This document shows positions 1-7,402 of a stretch of DNA of 7,402 bases, in pieces (positions within the stretch are counted from its first letter, which is position 1; every line of letters starts with the position of its first letter). The notes under the pieces were generated by a model that did not search any database, was not told where the DNA came from, and worked only from the letters and a program-made list of their open reading frames with translations. The DNA is from an uncultured Lachnospiraceae bacterium (lineage in GTDB: Bacteria; Bacillota_A; Clostridia; Lachnospirales; Lachnospiraceae). The position numbers were made by a program, and so were the translations under genes. The stretch spans positions 2,899 to 10,300 of the forward strand of contig CACZHN010000126.1 of NCBI GenBank assembly GCA_902780985.1. Reading direction: 5' to 3'.

Positions 1-827
1 GTGGACATTGCCAGATATACCAGGCTTCGCTCGGTGTGGATCACCGACTGCCCCTGCTCTATATAATCATCGTCTTTAAACATAGCGGATGCGGCGATGG
101 CCGAAAGAGAAGCTATATTGTTCTTTGTTGTTGCTATATCAACCTGCTGCATAAGAGAAGGGTTCTTCATAACCGCATATCCGAATCTGAGACCCGGAAC
201 GGCGAAGAACTTTGATACGCTTCTGATTACAGCCAGATTTGAAAACTCGTCCGTAAGCGGGATGGCGGTGTAGGTCTTGTAGTCATCCACAAACTCGATA
301 TACATCTCATCCACGATGAGGAATATCTTATGATCCCTGCAGGCCTCCGCCAGCTTTTTGATATCCTCCTGGCTTACGATCTTTGAAGTAGGATTGTTAG
401 GATTGCTGATCATCAGCACATCGTAGGAATCATCCAGGAAGTTGATAAGTTCGTTCATATCAAGCTCGAAGTCCTTGTTTTCGGAAAGATCGAAATACTT
501 GGCTTCGCAGCCGTAGGTGCGGAGAACCCTTTCGTACTCCATCGGACCCGGCGACAGAAGAAGCGCCTTCTTCGGCTTCAGGATAGTAGTGTAAAGCTTA
601 TACAGATCCGAAGATCCGTTGCCCATAACAATCCTGTCCAGAGTCATGTCTGTGTACTCTGCAGCGGCTTTCTTAAGTTTGTTGTAGTAAATGTCCGGGT
701 ACTTTGTTATAGAACTGAGGTTCTCGGCGATCGCTCTCCTTACTGATTCGGGGATTCCGAGAGGATTAAGGTTTGCATTATATAAAACTGTCGGATACTG
801 CTCCAGGCGAAGGTTAGTTGAGTTCAA
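1..827 (-). CDS. HisC/CobD-type PLP-dependent aminotransferase, N-terminal ~275 codons (partial)
   Basis: Reading the minus strand from a TTG at 827-825 gives an open frame of 275 codons to the left window edge, so the C-terminus is missing. It is a fold-type I PLP enzyme of the histidinol-phosphate aminotransferase / threonine-phosphate decarboxylase group. Visible marks are an N-terminal 'NANLNPLG' (residues 17-24), 'GNGSSDL' (69-75, cofactor phosphate region), 'SNPNNPT' (141-147), 'DEMYIEF' (173-179, with the Asp that contacts the pyridine nitrogen) and 'SVSKFFAVPGLRFGY' (203-217). K206 is the expected Schiff-base lysine. The 'SK-F-PGLR-GY' form resembles CobD as much as HisC, so the substrate (histidinol phosphate, another amino acid, or threonine phosphate) is unresolved. 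No his or cob genes are visible beside it. The TTG start is chosen because a GGAGG lies 9 nt upstream and no in-frame ATG or GTG fits. It is transcribed divergently from the three-gene unit. Soluble; no signal peptide. Confidence 0.9.
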   Translation of the reverse strand, partial: MNSTNLRLEQYPTVLYNANLNPLGIPESVRRAIAENLSSITKYPDIYYNKLKKAAAEYTDMTLDRIVMGNGSSDLYKLYTTILKPKKALLLSPGPMEYERVLRTYGCEAKYFDLSENKDFELDMNELINFLDDSYDVLMISNPNNPTSKIVSQEDIKKLAEACRDHKIFLIVDEMYIEFVDDYKTYTAIPLTDEFSNLAVIRSVSKFFAVPGLRFGYAVMKNPSLMQQVDIATTKNNIASLSAIAASAMFKDDDYIEQGQSVIHTERSLVYLAMS

Positions 828-993: not shown

Positions 994-3900
994 ATGAAGG
1001 CCATTGTTGAACAGTATGCAAAGGGTCAGTTTATCATAGACAGACCCGAGGTTGTTATCTCAGAGAGATTTTTCAAGATCAATATTGAGGCTGGTACTGT
1101 ATATTCGGGGGAGTTTACAGTAGAATCCAAAAACCAGTATCCGATTAAAGGTCTCGTATACGACAGCAGATACCTGCTCCGTTTCGAGGACCATTCCTTT
1201 GTGTCAAGAAAGTTTGCCGTAAAGTATTCTTACGATGCAACCTGTCTTGAAGCAGGTCAGAATTTCCGTGGTCATATAAATGTAATAACCGACGGAGGCG
1301 AGTTCAAACTCCCTTACGATATAAATATAGTTCAGCCTTGCGTAAAGCATCATGATGAGAGGGTTGATGACCTTTTCAAGTTTGCTGCTCTTGCGGAAAG
1401 AAGTTGGAAAGATGCTGCGCGCCTTTTTGTAAGTGATGAGTTCAGACGTACATTTATCGATAAGGATGCCCAGCTGAGACGTGTTTACGGAAGCCTCCTG
1501 GACAGCCGTTCCATCGATCAGGCTATGGAGGAATTCCTGGTTCTCGTATCCAAAAAGAGAACGGTTACACTTTCTGCATCCAAGGCCAAGGTGGATATAG
1601 AAATGCCTTCAGAGACGGAAAGCATTTCCATTGAGCTTTCAAAGAATACCTGGGGTTATACCTACTCGGATATCCGAAGTGATTCTGAATTCATTATACC
1701 TGCGAAGAAGTCCATTTCTTCCCAGGATTTTACCGCAAACAAATGTGCTCTTCGCGTTTATATATCACCGGAGCATGTTCCGGAAGGTGAGAACAGCGGA
1801 AAGCTTATCATTGAAAATATATATCAGAAGATCGAGATAGATGTTCATCTTTCCAAGCCCCAGAGGCCGAGAGACAATCAGGAGAACCGTCTGAGAGAAC
1901 AGCGCTATAAGACCAACAAGGTTGCGGTTACCAGAGCATATCTTGATTTCAGAATGGACAGGATCAACCTGGCCGAGTATACAAAGAGAACCATGGAGGC
2001 TCTCGACAACCTGAATGAGCTGGAGTCCGAAGAGAATCTTTACAGACTCGGCATCATGCACATGAATATCCTGAACGGGGATTACAGCAAGGTTGAGCAG
2101 GAGTTCCTGCGTATAGAGGCCGACGTTGATAAGACTCAGATGAGCAGCGAGCAGATGTGCTACTACGAGTACCTGCGTGCGCTTATCGCAAGAGACAACG
2201 AAGTGACCGAGAAGGTTGCAAATCTGCTTAGAAAGAATTTCAGAACCGAGAAGGAGAAGATGTTCTACTTCTGGCTTCTGCTTTTTGTGGACCCTACTTA
2301 TACAGAGGATAAGTCCCAGCTTTACAGAGAACTCAGTGAAATGTATTACGACGGCGAAAACAGCCCGATCATTTACTTTGAGTTCTGCAACATACTGAAC
2401 GAGAACCCGATCATCCTGAAGAAACTGGGATCCTTCGAGATTACAGCAATCAAGTGGGGACTCAGACATAAGTTCATATCGGATGACGTACTTATCGAGT
2501 TTGTTAAGCTTGCCGGAAAGAACCGCGACTTCAACAAGCAGATATTCGACGTACTCCGTCAGATATACGACAAGAACGAAGAGGAGCTCCGGGGCGAGAG
2601 ACTGAAGGCTCAGGTATGGTCCGCATCGACTCCTATCAAGAAGAATCAGGACGAGCTCCTGGACTTCCCGCTTAAGGAAGCCGATGATGAGGAAGAAGAG
2701 GAAGAAATCGAAGGCTTCAAGTTCGAAGGCGGAAGAACCGAAGATGACGATGACGATGAGGACGAATTCGGAGAAGAGTATCTCTACGATTCCGAATCAT
2801 CGGGAATAGATAAGATACTTTTTGCCAGATCCGCAGAGTACTGGAAGAAGGATCAGGATTCCGACAACACGGCTCTTGTTGATGCGGTGGACGAGAAAAT
2901 CGTTTACGAGAAGGATGAGCCGGTTAGCCCGTCGGAGGCAAGATTTGATGCGGCAGTACGTGCCGACGAAGCAGAGAAGCTGTCCCGTAAGGAAAATGAA
3001 AATCTTACGGTACTCAGTTCAATCTGCTCCATGCTTATTTCCGCAAATATGCTGGACAACAAGTATCACCGCTTCTATAAAGCAGCTATCGACAGATCTC
3101 TTAAGTTCATCGGACTTAATGAATGCTACATCAGAAGCATGAACAGAACGAGATACGACCTTATACCGTCATCCGTTCTTATGTATCTTAACTACAAGAA
3201 TACACTTACAGAGGATGAGCTGGCTTACCTCTATGCAAATGTAATCTTCAACAAGTCGGAGCACATGAAGATCTATCATGAATATGCACCGACCATGGAA
3301 GACTTCATGGAGAAGATGATCATGAAGGGCAGAGTCAACGATGACCTGACAGTCATTTACGACGAGTTCCTGGAGCCTGATAATGTAAGTTCTCTGTATG
3401 CGGGAAAGCTTATCAATATCATTTTCAGAAGGAAGATCGTCTGCTCCAACAAGAAGGTTAGAGCGGTTGTTATTTCCCATGAAGAGCTGCAGGACATCCA
3501 GAGAGTTCCGCTGGTAAACGGCGAGGCTTACGTGGAGATTCTGTCGGATAACGCTTCCATAGTATTTGAGGATAACAACGGCAACAGATATGCCGGATCC
3601 ATTCCTTATCATTTCGAAAGGATAGTGGATGAGAAGGCATACATGCCGATCTGTAAGGAGTACAGCCCTCGTGACTACAGAGTCCTTCTGTTCAATTACG
3701 AGAGCCTGGGCGAGTTTACTTACAGAAATGCCAAGGAGGTCAACGCCGCAAGAGATATCATCCAGTGCGAGGAGATATCCCACGACTACAAGCAGCAGGC
3801 CTGCCTCAGAATAATAGAGTATTATCATGAGAATCTTGATACAGACGTTCTGGTCAAGTACCTCAACAGACTTGATATAGAGTATCTTACACATGCAAAT

Positions 3901-4977
3901 GCGAGAACCATCATTACATATCTCATCGATATGAACATGTTCGACAAAGCATTTCAGGCTGTTAAGCTCTATGGTTTTAACGAGCTGGATGTAAACGAGC
4001 TTTACCGCCTTGCAGACTACGGTGTTTCAGACTCGGACGGCTTCCTGAACGAAGACCTGATGTCCATATGTCTGAACCTGTATAAGACAGGTACCGTAAA
4101 TAACAACATTCTCGGTTACATGACGTCCAACTTCAAGGGAAGTCTGGAAGAGCTTTCATCCCTCTTCAAGCTGGCCAAGGACAGAGTGTCCGACATGACC
4201 CCGCTTGCCGAGAACACGCTGGCACAGATGATGTTCTCCAATTCTTATCTGGAGTACATTTACGATATCTTCTCAACTTACTACGTGGGAAGAAGCAGAG
4301 GACTGGTTGTAAAGGCCTTCCTCAGACTGTCGGCGCACAATTATCTTGTTAATGATACACAGGTTCCGAACCACATTTTAGATGCGCTTTATCAGGAAAT
4401 GTGGAGAGGCAACATAGACGACGAAGTATCCGCTATGGCACTGCTGCTTTACTTCAGCAGGCTTGAACGATTCAACGACAATCAGAAGAAGTGGATCACA
4501 GACAACATCGAGCGTTTCGTGGATGCAGGCAAGATCCTTCCGTTCTTCAAGAAGTTCGGAAGCTTCATCAAACTGCCTCAGGACGTATACCTTAAGACCT
4601 ATCTTATCTACAAGACAGAGAATGTACGTCATGTCTTTGTTAAGTACAGTTTCGATACGGGAACAAGGAATAAGTCCAAGACCGAGAGACGACGCCTCGA
4701 GGAAGTGGTGGACGGCGTATATGTTATGGAATTCGTGATATTCCATGGCGAGCGTCTGGTTTACTCCATCGAGGACGATCCGAACGGAAATGCAAAGATC
4801 ATGGAGAGCGAAGTGCTCAAGAAGAAATCCTTCAATCAGAAGAAGGTCAACAGATTCGAGCTTATCAACAGCATGCTGGTTAAGCAGGAAATGCGTGACG
4901 ACAAGTCACTTCTCGAGGATCTGGATGTATACATCAATACGGTGCACCTGTTTGAGGAGAACCTGAACATACTTTAA
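994..4977 (+). CDS. Large multidomain cytosolic protein, DUF5717-like, function unknown
   Basis: A 1327-aa protein of unknown function. Its look and partner match what I recall as the Lachnospiraceae DUF5717 family; this is memory, not a search. Predicted order from sequence character: an all-beta region at 15-115 ending in a 'GGEFKLPYDI' strand pair (101-110), like bacterial Ig-type sandwiches; a helical stretch 116-190; a second beta region 190-286; a charged linker to ~306; a helical array ~306-556 with TPR-like pairs ('LYRLGIMHMNILNGDYSKVE'); an acidic linker from ~562; helices ~680-800; a beta insert ~800-907; a second long helical array ~907-1205; and a C-terminal beta region 1210-1275 ('VYVMEFVIFHGERLVYSI'). 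There is no signal peptide, membrane segment or nucleotide-binding loop. The layout suggests a scaffold or adaptor (inference). The start is supported by GAGGG 5 nt upstream. The Hsp70-like gene follows after 14 nt. Confidence 0.9.
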   Translation: MKAIVEQYAKGQFIIDRPEVVISERFFKINIEAGTVYSGEFTVESKNQYPIKGLVYDSRYLLRFEDHSFVSRKFAVKYSYDATCLEAGQNFRGHINVITDGGEFKLPYDINIVQPCVKHHDERVDDLFKFAALAERSWKDAARLFVSDEFRRTFIDKDAQLRRVYGSLLDSRSIDQAMEEFLVLVSKKRTVTLSASKAKVDIEMPSETESISIELSKNTWGYTYSDIRSDSEFIIPAKKSISSQDFTANKCALRVYISPEHVPEGENSGKLIIENIYQKIEIDVHLSKPQRPRDNQENRLREQRYKTNKVAVTRAYLDFRMDRINLAEYTKRTMEALDNLNELESEENLYRLGIMHMNILNGDYSKVEQEFLRIEADVDKTQMSSEQMCYYEYLRALIARDNEVTEKVANLLRKNFRTEKEKMFYFWLLLFVDPTYTEDKSQLYRELSEMYYDGENSPIIYFEFCNILNENPIILKKLGSFEITAIKWGLRHKFISDDVLIEFVKLAGKNRDFNKQIFDVLRQIYDKNEEELRGERLKAQVWSASTPIKKNQDELLDFPLKEADDEEEEEEIEGFKFEGGRTEDDDDDEDEFGEEYLYDSESSGIDKILFARSAEYWKKDQDSDNTALVDAVDEKIVYEKDEPVSPSEARFDAAVRADEAEKLSRKENENLTVLSSICSMLISANMLDNKYHRFYKAAIDRSLKFIGLNECYIRSMNRTRYDLIPSSVLMYLNYKNTLTEDELAYLYANVIFNKSEHMKIYHEYAPTMEDFMEKMIMKGRVNDDLTVIYDEFLEPDNVSSLYAGKLINIIFRRKIVCSNKKVRAVVISHEELQDIQRVPLVNGEAYVEILSDNASIVFEDNNGNRYAGSIPYHFERIVDEKAYMPICKEYSPRDYRVLLFNYESLGEFTYRNAKEVNAARDIIQCEEISHDYKQQACLRIIEYYHENLDTDVLVKYLNRLDIEYLTHANARTIITYLIDMNMFDKAFQAVKLYGFNELDVNELYRLADYGVSDSDGFLNEDLMSICLNLYKTGTVNNNILGYMTSNFKGSLEELSSLFKLAKDRVSDMTPLAENTLAQMMFSNSYLEYIYDIFSTYYVGRSRGLVVKAFLRLSAHNYLVNDTQVPNHILDALYQEMWRGNIDDEVSAMALLLYFSRLERFNDNQKKWITDNIERFVDAGKILPFFKKFGSFIKLPQDVYLKTYLIYKTENVRHVFVKYSFDTGTRNKSKTERRRLEEVVDGVYVMEFVIFHGERLVYSIEDDPNGNAKIMESEVLKKKSFNQKKVNRFELINSMLVKQEMRDDKSLLEDLDVYINTVHLFEENLNIL
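2677..2778 (+). other. Extreme acidic low-complexity linker inside the large protein
   Basis: Residues 562-595 carry two acidic runs: one (564-571) of two Asp then six Glu, and another (583-591) of Glu, five Asp, then Glu-Asp-Glu, separated by a short glycine-containing segment. The DNA is a near-tandem GAN trinucleotide array, especially at 2740-2765. The polar, disordered-looking stretch continues to about residue 680. It separates the two helical arrays and is likely a flexible tether or a site for binding basic partners (inference). Confidence 0.85.
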
Positions 4978-4991
4978 GAAAGGAACCGGAA

Positions 4992-6245
4992 ATGTCAGAG
5001 CTTTACTACATTGGAATGGACCTGTGCTCGGATTTTACGCAGCTGTCATATTATAACGATATCAAGCGTGAGCCGGAGTCCGTAAGCCAGTTGAATAACA
5101 AGGATACCTACCTTATGCCGAACATCCTGTTCTACAGTACCGAGTCTGAACGCTGGTACGTAGGCGGTGAGGCTTCCGAAGCAAGATTCTCGGAGGAAGG
5201 TGTTGTCGTGGACAGCATATTTGAAAACCTTGGAAATACTGAACCGCTTACGGTTGCGGACAGGGAATATACTTACGCTGACCTTTTCATAATGATGGTC
5301 AAACTTCATATCGACTCATTCCTGTACAGATACGAGTCTGCGGAGATCAAGAAGCTGGTCATCTCCGTGCCGGAGTATGATCCGCAGATATTCCACCTTC
5401 TGTCAGGATTATATAAGGAAATGGGCGTGAAGAAGAACAGGATAGAGATCACCAGCCACCTGGACAGCGGTCTCTACTATATCTTCAATCAGCCTCATGA
5501 CCTGTGGAACAATTCCGTGGCACTTTACGACTACAGCGCTGACGGACTGCATTACTACAGAATAGATATGTCCAGAAACAGAAAGCCTGAGCTGGTAACG
5601 GTTCAGCATGAGGATTATTCCTCGCAGATATCTCTTTCCAGATACGGAAATGATACCTATCAGATGGACATTGATTTCAGTAAGATCGCCGAGTATGAGC
5701 TTAAGAAGGCATATATATCCTCCGTATTCCTGACGGGAGTCGGCTTCTCCAACAAATGGATGAAGAAGTCTACCAACGTTCTCTGTCAGGGAAGAAGAGT
5801 TTTCGTGGGACAGAACATTTATACCAAGGGCGCCTGCTACAGAGCGGTGGGCGGCGAGTATGCTCAGTTCTATGATGACTTTTTCGTGGAAACCAAGGAA
5901 AATGTACTCTTTGACGTGGGCATCGCCCTGGAAGAAGGAGATACCGAGTTCGTGCCTATCGTAAGAGGCGGCAGACAGTGGTATAACACATACGGAAAGA
6001 TCTGCGTCATCCTGGATGATACGGATAAGATAACAATAGTTTACAAAAATCATCACACCGAAGAGGAGAAGCGTGAGACCGTAAGAATTCACGGCCTTCC
6101 GAAGAGACCGAACAAGACTACGAAGCTGAGCCTCGAAGTTGAGTTCGACGATCCGCATTCGGGAGCGGTCATCATCAAGGATCTGGGATTCGGTAAGCTC
6201 TTTCCGACAACCAACAAAATATACAGAAAGGAGTTCAGTATCTGA
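4992..6245 (+). CDS. Degenerate Hsp70-like (actin-fold) protein, DUF5716-like
   Basis: A 417-aa protein laid out like Hsp70/DnaK but with altered active-site motifs. 'YIGMDLCSDF' (6-15) stands for phosphate-1 GIDLGTTN, 'MPNILFYSTESERWYVGGEA' (42-61) for the PSVVAF...VG.A segment, 'KKLVISVPEYD' (120-130) for the AVITVPAYF strand, 'ITSHLDSGLYY' (153-163) for IINEPTAAALAY, 'VALYDYSADG' (176-185) for phosphate-2 DLGGGT, and 'SSVFLTGVG' (243-251) for the adenosine motif. Residues ~304-402 resemble the Hsp70 substrate-binding beta domain ('LFDVGIALEEGD', 'IHGLPKRPNK', 'LSLEVEFDDPHSGAVIIKD'). The two strand aspartates (D10, D180) remain, but the phosphate-loop glycines/threonines and the NEPT glutamate are lost, so normal ATP hydrolysis is doubtful. 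There is no helical lid. I recall the related family as DUF5716. The start follows AAGGA by 7 nt, and the stop overlaps the next gene's ATG by 1 nt. Probably a chaperone-like partner of its neighbours (inference). Confidence 0.85.
   Translation: MSELYYIGMDLCSDFTQLSYYNDIKREPESVSQLNNKDTYLMPNILFYSTESERWYVGGEASEARFSEEGVVVDSIFENLGNTEPLTVADREYTYADLFIMMVKLHIDSFLYRYESAEIKKLVISVPEYDPQIFHLLSGLYKEMGVKKNRIEITSHLDSGLYYIFNQPHDLWNNSVALYDYSADGLHYYRIDMSRNRKPELVTVQHEDYSSQISLSRYGNDTYQMDIDFSKIAEYELKKAYISSVFLTGVGFSNKWMKKSTNVLCQGRRVFVGQNIYTKGACYRAVGGEYAQFYDDFFVETKENVLFDVGIALEEGDTEFVPIVRGGRQWYNTYGKICVILDDTDKITIVYKNHHTEEEKRETVRIHGLPKRPNKTTKLSLEVEFDDPHSGAVIIKDLGFGKLFPTTNKIYRKEFSI
6227..6233 (+). promoter_or_regulatory. 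Ribosome binding site inside the end of the Hsp70-like gene
   Basis: AAAGGAG lies within the last codons of the Hsp70-like gene, 11 nt before the ATG at 6245. That ATG shares its A with the TGA stop (TGATG), so the third gene is likely translated by coupled re-initiation. Confidence 0.7.
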
Positions 6246-7078
6246 TGTCAAAGGTAATTTTATGTTCTTCAAAAACAGCAGAGACTCCCTTCACCTTTCT
6301 GAATACAAAGGTTGAGATTTACACATACGAGGAGCTTTGCTTCTATATATTCAACAACACGGTTCTGATAAGCAAGTCGGTGCTTTCGGAGAAGCTTTTC
6401 AATTTCATCCGCGATGAGCTGGGAATGGAAGAGCTGGCCGATAAACTTACCGGTCTTATGAACAAGACGACTTATGCTCAGGACCTGCTTATAGAAATTC
6501 TGAATGCCGGAGATTATTATACTCCGGACGAGATAAAGACTTACGCCGCAGCATGGCAGAAGTACCGCAAGCTCAATCCGCAGCAGAGAGCAAAGCTTAA
6601 GGCGGACGGATATCTTGCATACAGAAGATATATCAAGGCTGCGACTCTTTATGATGAGATTCTGGACGGCACGGACGAAAGCACGGATCCGGTATTTATC
6701 GGAAATGTATGCCACAACAGAGCAGTTGCCGCAGCAAACAATCTCGACATAGAAGATGCTAAGGAATACTTCCTTAAAGCTTATGAATACAATAACAATC
6801 CTGAGTCACTGAAAGGATATTTCTATATAATTGCAACCTACGAAGATTCCGTGACTCTGAGAGAGGAAATCCGAGTCCGCGGATTGGACGAGGATTACTT
6901 TGATGATATAATGGCCGAAATCGGTGATTCGAAGGCTGACGTCCAGGAGATGACAATCTTTGCCATGCTCCAGAGAGCGGTATACAATCGTTTAAATAAG
7001 GACATGACGGATTATGATAAGAGAATGGATATCATACTTGCTGAGCTGAAGGATGAGTTCAGAGAACAGGCTATATAG
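6245..7078 (+). CDS. TPR-like helical protein, third gene of the unit, function unknown
   Basis: A 277-aa soluble protein of unknown function. Residues 1-25 look beta-rich ('SKVILCSSKTAETPFTF', 'KVEIYTYEELC'), followed by a conserved-looking helical block to ~115 ('LCFYIFNNTVLIS', 'LFNFIRDELGMEELADKL'). Residues ~117-201 look like tetratricopeptide-type helix pairs: 'GYLAYRRYIKAATLYDEIL' (122-140) and 'NVCHNRAVAAANNLDIEDAK' (154-173) with 'EYFLKAYEYN' (174-183), then a third helix pair. The C-terminal ~75 residues are acidic helices. TPR domains usually bind peptides or partner proteins, and some bind Hsp70 family members; here the partner would plausibly be the Hsp70-like product encoded just upstream (inference). 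Translation is coupled through the TGATG overlap. I recall similar hypothetical proteins in Lachnospiraceae but know no characterised member. Confidence 0.85.
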   Translation: MSKVILCSSKTAETPFTFLNTKVEIYTYEELCFYIFNNTVLISKSVLSEKLFNFIRDELGMEELADKLTGLMNKTTYAQDLLIEILNAGDYYTPDEIKTYAAAWQKYRKLNPQQRAKLKADGYLAYRRYIKAATLYDEILDGTDESTDPVFIGNVCHNRAVAAANNLDIEDAKEYFLKAYEYNNNPESLKGYFYIIATYEDSVTLREEIRVRGLDEDYFDDIMAEIGDSKADVQEMTIFAMLQRAVYNRLNKDMTDYDKRMDIILAELKDEFREQAI

Positions 7079-7126: not shown

Positions 7127-7402
7127 ATGAGTAAGGAACTGGCGAAAACATACGACCCTGCGGGTATCGAAAAGAGACTGTATGATAAGTGGGTCGAGAA
7201 GGGATATTTTCATGCGGAGGTAGACAGAAGCAGAAAGCCTTTCACAATTGTTATGCCGCCTCCAAATATTACGGGACAGCTTCACATGGGTCATGCACTG
7301 GATAACACAATGCAGGATATCCTTATCAGAATGAAGAGAATGCAGGGCTACAATGCTCTGTGGCAGCCGGGTACAGACCATGCGGCTATCGCAACAGAGG
7401 TT
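7127..7402 (+). CDS. valS: Valyl-tRNA synthetase, N-terminal 92 codons (partial)
   Basis: Class I aminoacyl-tRNA synthetase that charges tRNA-Val in the cytosol. The open frame begins at ATG 7127 and runs off the right edge; full-length bacterial ValRS is near 880 aa, so about a tenth is visible. '[20 protein letters not shown]' (9-28) is the typical N-terminal opening. '[15 protein letters not shown]' (44-58) contains the HIGH-class ATP signature as HMGH (53-56), and '[11 protein letters not shown]' (81-91) is the characteristic ValRS segment. IleRS and LeuRS differ at these sites, so the specificity call is strong. It starts 48 nt after the TPR-like gene on the same strand, with no T-box in the gap. 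It may therefore be read through from upstream; an internal promoter inside the preceding gene cannot be excluded. Confidence 0.95.

Follow-up and report, generated by a model that had tools for sequence, protein, structure and literature searches.

Results

Genes and features of the locus

The window, by which we mean the whole stretch of 7,402 nucleotides that was analysed, lies on contig CACZHN010000126.1 of an uncultured Lachnospiraceae bacterium. A DUF5716 gene stands between a DUF5717 gene and a TPR-type gene, and the following features were assigned:

3-827, minus strand: upstream, partial class I/II aminotransferase gene, an ordinary neighbour (Pfam)
994-4977, plus strand: DUF5717 gene, 1327 aa (PF18984, PF18983), the conserved upstream neighbour of DUF5716 (Pfam)
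4992-6245, plus strand: DUF5716 gene, 417-aa pseudo-Hsp70 (family match, model and profile)
4992-5891, plus strand: Hsp70-type nucleotide-binding domain (NBD), about residues 1-300, lacking the stretch of subdomain IIB (model and spacing)
5892-6242, plus strand: beta substrate-binding domain (SBD-beta), about residues 301-417, with no helical lid after it (model and profile)
6245-7078, plus strand: TPR-type gene, 277 aa, with one base shared between its start codon and the stop codon of DUF5716 (TGATG)
7127-7402: downstream, beginning of a gene for a class I tRNA synthetase (valS judging from the neighbouring genes), an ordinary neighbour (Pfam)

DUF5716 is a degenerate Hsp70

The DUF5716 product matched PF18980 (DUF5716_C; 1.2e-100, 336.8 bits against a curated cut-off of 34.7), in agreement with the family name given in the initial annotation of this DNA. 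The one-line Pfam description of PF18980 gives neither a function nor a link to Hsp70. Literature searches returned a passing mention of DUF5716 in the available part of a paper on cancer drug targets and no paper naming DUF5717.

The initial annotation had read the protein as an Hsp70 fold and proposed a fold search. The structure predicted for the window protein (pLDDT 80.8) was used for this purpose; Hsp70s were the best 50 of the 50 matches listed, with Ssz1 at the top, and no unrelated fold was obtained. The structural matches covered the NBD, with alignments from about 3-288 to 3-301, as well as the SBD-beta. A relative in which DUF5716 is fused to the TPR protein was modelled independently and again adopted an Hsp70 NBD plus SBD-beta fold. 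Searches with the single window protein gave no PF00012 (HSP70) match in a Pfam scan at E up to 1 and, with phmmer against the PDB, no Hsp70 but two non-Hsp70 matches (E 0.19 and 0.22). We then relied on a profile of divergent members, for which 134 aligned proteins of 370-480 aa were reduced to 44 sharing less than 72% mutual identity, and 41 of these were used (L120, L088 and L137 were omitted). DnaK was the first match of this profile in the PDB (E 6.6e-8, profile positions 8-133), and a second, weak stretch was colinear with it, GLPKRPNKTTRL...DxGFG aligning onto the DnaK strands GIPPAPRG...AKDLGTG. When compared with 15 Hsp70s by hhalign, the same profile reached 97% (E 9.6e-11, 387 columns). 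Altogether, the model, the structural matches and the profile searches bear out the Hsp70 fold, and DUF5716 is a degenerate Hsp70 descended from an Hsp70 with both NBD and SBD-beta.

Active-site residues, missing parts and selection

Alignment to Hsp70s and within the family placed the following features on the DUF5716 gene:

5013-5036, plus strand: phosphate-1 loop, residues 8-15, GMDLCSDF replacing GIDLGTTN (alignment to Hsp70)
5220-5222, plus strand: residue 77, F at the position of DnaK catalytic Lys70 (alignment to Hsp70)
5454-5465, plus strand: residues 155-158, SHLD replacing NEPT (alignment to Hsp70)
5529-5546, plus strand: phosphate-2 loop, residues 180-185, DYSADG replacing DLGGGT (alignment to Hsp70)
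5730-5747, plus strand: adenosine-strand remnant, residues 247-252, LTGVGF (family alignment)
5784-5837, plus strand: strongly conserved NBD stretch, residues 265-282, CQGRRVFVGQNIYTKGAC (family alignment)
6093-6194, plus strand: residues 368-401, GLPKRPNKTT...DLGFG, resembling DnaK GIPPAPRG...AKDLGTG (profile match)

The loss of the usual ATPase residues, claimed from the window protein alone, extended to the whole family alignment. Lys was found in 0/41 members at the DnaK Lys70 position, which was occupied by L (19), Y (8), F (7), V (5), D (1) or S (1). The catalytic Glu position falls on S155 by the profile and on H156 in the initial annotation, and Glu was absent from both in 41/41 members. 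The GGGT of the phosphate-2 loop was likewise gone. The letters of the altered phosphate loops were not conserved in any form across the 41 members. The strand aspartates and glycine described as persisting did so in part: G249 was invariant and D10 was Asp in 34/41 members, but D180 was Asp in only 25/41. D397, G399 and G401 were also invariant (41/41), and residue 158 was acidic (Glu/Asp) in 38/41.

Whole parts of the Hsp70 architecture were missing as well. In DnaK, 142 residues separate the phosphate-2 loop from the adenosine strand, against only 58-76 in DUF5716 of the Eubacterium ruminantium family, so about 70 residues are missing, in the stretch that forms subdomain IIB in DnaK. At the other end, 21-33 residues separate D397 from the C terminus in the 41-member alignment, and therefore DUF5716 has no helical lid; the model contains no helix past the last strand. 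In one fused DUF5716-TPR protein (P0124), a further 25-30 residues or so are absent close to the NBD N terminus (about columns 32-62 of alignment A6), which by its alignment appears to be a further reduction of the Hsp70 fold. Of the two readings offered by the initial annotation, a pseudo-ATPase or altered nucleotide use, the latter seems less likely than loss because the stretch holding IIB in DnaK is missing too.

The dN/dS of the window gene against six relatives was 0.014-0.067, with synonymous sites near saturation for the more distant ones. This rules out decay into a pseudogene: DUF5716 is under strong purifying selection, and its coding frame is indeed intact and maintained.

Distribution of DUF5716

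Of 397 genomes sampled from the E. ruminantium (G001) family, 388 contained PF18980, with one match in 380 of them and two in the other 8. Most two-match genomes carried split or partial copies, and one (G530) had two full matches. A second, weak match in G730 was discarded as chance, since by eye its protein looks like a diguanylate cyclase. In a draw from the phylum, 5 out of 398 genomes were positive, and those five also matched in the family draw; none of 14 control genomes had PF18980. Nine genomes of the family draw had no PF18980 match, and five of these also had no match to PF18984. In two of the nine (G547 and G708), DUF5717 occurred without DUF5716 on contigs continuing past it, and in two others DUF5717 lay at a contig edge, one of them partly masked. 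PF00012 matches were present in all nine, and a strong DnaK match was found in 10/10 genomes searched for it.

NCBI places E. ruminantium in Eubacteriaceae; GTDB, the basis of the genome set, places it in Lachnospiraceae. By NCBI family, the 80 named loci belonged to Lachnospiraceae (60), Eubacteriaceae (15), Bacteroidaceae (1) and Clostridiaceae (1), and three had no family. The same locus type was carried by a contig labelled Bacteroides (L063), which is probably a mislabelled assembled genome.

The DUF5717/DUF5716/TPR module

Neighbours were counted in the 98 loci, out of 101, in which gene calling recovered DUF5716. DUF5717 was present in 97 of them, immediately upstream (-1) in 96, and the TPR gene was immediately downstream (+1) in 92. 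The six loci without a TPR gene at +1 comprised two fusions, two contig ends and two cases in which an ORF on the opposite strand had been called. The median distance between the DUF5716 and TPR genes was -1 base, as in the window, and the two were fused in four genomes (G472, G756, G444 and G728, the last cut by a contig end) and in two further proteins of the protein database. A profile of the TPR protein matched designed TPRs and co-chaperones such as Sti1 and CHIP in the PDB, matches that are only suggestive because such TPRs are common there. The placement of the TPR part relative to the SBD is unsure, given the pTM of 0.59 of the fusion model.

DUF5717 gave no convincing relative among solved structures, either as a single sequence or as a profile. 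By eye, the N terminus of its product (window 994-4977) seems to consist of two beta-sandwich-like domains followed by helical repeats; in addition, a highly acidic stretch is present in the copy of the window. Since DUF5717 occurs without DUF5716 in G547 and G708, DUF5716 is dispensable, and these two genomes suggest a core role for DUF5717, to which DUF5716 would have been added as a subunit. In G708 (L209:2501-7434), DUF5717 is followed directly by a coiled-coil gene and then a valS-like gene, and the DUF5716 and TPR genes are absent.

This coiled-coil gene, encoding about 430 aa with two hydrophobic stretches, stood at +2 in 32/98 loci (L074:6994-8304 and 31 similar) and was labelled in 4/20 regions of other genomes in the order. 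A Pfam scan of one member gave no family above cut-off. When the gene was searched in 14 genomes, mostly chosen for a locus without it, only G708 was positive. We therefore rejected it as a constant part of the module; it is a frequent neighbour only.

A multi-Hsp70 operon in other genomes of the order

A corresponding search in the order of E. ruminantium gave matches in 59/116 genomes (55 above cut-off), many of which had two weaker adjacent matches, lying in reading frames some 520 and 550 aa long. Out of these 59 genomes we selected 19, which contributed 20 regions; most of the regions represent the higher-scoring among the weaker matches, and some the lowest-scoring ones. Genomes with weak matches were taken to lie outside the family because even the poorest match of the family draw (8.9e-32) is stronger than their values (2.3e-28 and weaker). 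The order DUF5717 - Hsp70A - GrpE-domain gene - DUF5716 - Hsp70B - Hsp70C-vWA - TPR was found in 15/20 regions, a count that includes extra ORFs in some regions and one region (L223) where both DUF5717 and Hsp70C are split in two; in the five remaining regions the operon was incomplete or interrupted. Searches of the literature, with subscription papers outside their scope, found no description of the DUF5716 system or of this operon.

The Hsp70s of the operon appear complete. The catalytic Lys, Glu, Asp and Thr were kept in 36/36 aligned Hsp70A, B and C proteins, and a C-terminal von Willebrand A (vWA) domain was present in 15/15 Hsp70C proteins scanned (L213:4790-6862 and 14 similar, L212-L229). 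In L213, Hsp70B scored 215 bits against PF00012 and 47.7 bits against PF18980, the latter exceeding the cut-off. Like DUF5716, Hsp70B ends soon after SBD-beta. Every one of the 17 genes scanned between Hsp70A and DUF5716 had a GrpE domain (L213:10130-12019 and 16 similar; alignment A9 holds 17 of 18, a 253-aa ORF of L217 being omitted). Sixteen of their products measure 502-644 aa and that of L223 279 aa, so most far exceed a housekeeping GrpE. No J domain was found by Pfam in the five window proteins or among the matches listed for ten operon proteins, and a simple motif scan of the operons revealed no J-domain protein, its single match lying inside the GrpE-domain gene of L218.

DUF5716 orthologs of these operons matched PF18980 in 16/17 cases and PF00012 in 11/17, the other six having no PF00012 match. 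Their profile (A10, 17 of the 19 orthologs found; L217 and L230 omitted) aligned to the 41-member family profile (A2) with E 9.2e-58 over 418 columns. Through these orthologs and Hsp70B, the reduced family is thus tied to Hsp70 in steps. The phosphate-2 to adenosine spacing was 132-151 residues in these orthologs outside the family and 144-145 in Hsp70B.

The long GrpE gene gave strong matches in G818, G799 and G829, the multi-Hsp70 genomes that were searched, and was not found in 13 other genomes searched, 11 of which are family-type genomes carrying DUF5716. GrpE matches of 20-25 bits lay beside dnaK in three of those 13 (20-23 bits in the two bearing DUF5716), as expected for the housekeeping GrpE.

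Order of losses

A tree of 72 rows was built, from which 7 of the 20 regions were omitted as near-copies or incomplete and in which 4 of 10 DnaK sequences were included. A 100/100 branch split 46 Hsp70 rows from 26 DUF5716-type rows. With a root placed among the other Hsp70s, Hsp70B would be the nearest relative (sister) of the DUF5716 group. The E. ruminantium family, represented by 13 rows, formed one clade (100/95), and its sister was the L223 protein (100/100), in which the motif is already altered (GFDLCTDYS) and the multi-Hsp70 operon still present. Fine placement is weakened by long branches and odd composition; the operon order gives independent support. Hsp70s of about 563 aa in the family were considered as relics of Hsp70A-C and rejected, as the five placed grouped with DnaK (L187 and L191 were not in the tree).

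Among the 26 DUF5716-type rows, the catalytic Lys was found in none and the Glu in two, both among the 13 orthologs outside the family, and yet these 13 have the IIB spacing of 132-151 residues. Catalysis was thus lost first and the IIB stretch later. GrpE docks on DnaK at subdomain IIB, and for this reason the joint loss of the long GrpE gene and the IIB stretch fits one story.

Discussion

Several findings go beyond what the initial annotation had seen in the window: the SBD-beta, the absence of a lid, the partners, the occurrence in nearly all genomes of the family sample, and the multi-Hsp70 operon that relatives carry. Because that operon has three complete-looking Hsp70s and an exchange-factor-like gene, DUF5716 may be the surviving passive piece of a chaperone machine. 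We consider it probable that DUF5716 is a pseudo-Hsp70, an Ssz1-like passive partner of a multi-Hsp70 machine that was kept as a scaffold with DUF5717 and the TPR protein after the active Hsp70s were lost. DUF5716 would then not hydrolyse ATP and would probably not cycle, acting instead as a fixed scaffold or a client- or partner-binding subunit in a putative DUF5717/DUF5716/TPR complex. In such a complex, DUF5717 would hold DUF5716 and the TPR protein would join its SBD-beta end, where a canonical Hsp70 has its lid. The ancestral DUF5716 may have stood beside three ATPase-competent Hsp70s and the GrpE-domain protein of the same operon, as Ssz1 stands beside Ssb. In the E. ruminantium family, the ATPases and the gene for the exchange factor would have disappeared while the passive complex remained, possibly serving the housekeeping DnaK. 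For a more far-reaching version the arguments appear to us evenly balanced: that this order of Clostridia carries an undescribed machine of three ATPase-competent Hsp70s, a pseudo-Hsp70, a long GrpE, a TPR protein and a DUF5717 scaffold, that the E. ruminantium family lost the motors and the exchange factor, and that DUF5716, freed of IIB, became a nucleotide-independent structural core part.

Ssz1 belongs to the yeast ribosome-associated complex, in which it acts with Zuo1 beside Ssb, has no lid and binds ATP without hydrolysing it, according to the available parts of PMC7083937 and PMC8476630. DUF5716 resembles it in the Hsp70 fold, the absence of an SBD-alpha lid, a dedicated partner and active Hsp70s alongside, with little or no hydrolysis described for Ssz1 in those parts. 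It differs in lacking the IIB stretch and the catalytic Lys and Glu, whereas Ssz1 binds ATP, and in having DUF5717 and TPR neighbours with no J-domain partner found by Pfam and motif scan. DUF5716 might still, like Ssz1, bind ATP or another nucleotide tightly, with the nucleotide locking one conformation. Some ligand may indeed bind, since D10 and G249 are largely kept, but the IIB stretch falls short by about 70 residues in the E. ruminantium family, and this, together with the inconstant D180 and the unconserved phosphate loops, makes tight nucleotide binding an unlikely reading. It is very improbable that DUF5716 works as an enzyme through a site rebuilt around, for instance, the acidic residue 158: conserved as this residue is, its place in the modelled helix 156-165 is roughly one helical turn away from the catalytic position, and the other active-site positions examined vary. 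Descent from another actin-fold family (MreB, FtsA or EutJ) can practically be ruled out. Such proteins share the NBD fold, and MreB-type chains appeared at Foldseek rows 46 and 50 of the fusion model; however, SBD-beta is present and matched, hhalign of the DUF5716 profile to MreB gave 0.65% (with only two sequences on the MreB side), and PF00012 matches most of the operon orthologs.

Degenerate Hsp70s, including the bacterial CnuD (PMC11090510), and Hsp70-GrpE-TPR neighbourhoods (PMC7159879) are already known from the available parts of these sources. CnuD, of the CoCoNuT type IV restriction systems, has Hsp70-like NBD and SBD with degenerate nucleotide motifs and is predicted there to hydrolyse very poorly, a likeness drawn by description and not by sequence. 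CnuD occurs with McrBC-type GTPases, whereas DUF5716 accompanies DUF5717 and TPR genes in nearly every genome of the family sample, and Pfam found no McrB-type GTPase among the window proteins scanned. The theme in the accessible portion of PMC7159879, that of GAP1-N2 neighbourhoods, unites HSP70, GrpE, a second HSP70 without the peptide-binding domain (in a subset) and an FNIII protein with DnaJ or TPR repeats fused to it, and the operon described here likewise has Hsp70s, a GrpE-domain gene and a TPR gene. Membership of our module in these GTPase/chaperone conflict systems of firmicutes and actinobacteria, with an immunity-like role, nevertheless seems improbable to us. The reduced HSP70 in that source lacks the peptide-binding domain, whereas DUF5716 keeps SBD-beta. 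Conflict systems are patchy, unlike a family found in 388/397 genomes with a single match in 380. None of the three window genes matched a PADLOC model at E up to 1, three of eight L213/L221 proteins did so only in part (the best 3.9e-11, over an Hsp70 stretch), and no GAP1 or GTPase gene was found among the operon proteins scanned, which cover part of the neighbours.

We thus favour the passive, Ssz1-like pseudo-Hsp70. Compared with DnaK and PF00012, DUF5716 retains the succession of NBD and SBD-beta, the latter ending in GLPxRP...DxGxG, but has lost the catalytic residues, the GGGT loop, the IIB stretch and the lid, together with a PF00012 match for the window protein. The best-known atypical Hsp70s are eukaryotic (Ssz1, Sse/Hsp110). 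DUF5716 is near-universal in the sample of a large family, whose members are mostly gut bacteria, and has no annotated function. Its living intermediates, from active paralogs through orthologs with the IIB stretch and faint Hsp70 scores to the reduced form, constitute a stepwise record of an Hsp70 losing catalysis before a subdomain. The function-less Pfam families DUF5716 and DUF5717 become testable parts of a chaperone-like complex and, if this reading is true, an Hsp70 would have turned into a purely structural protein that almost a whole family has kept.
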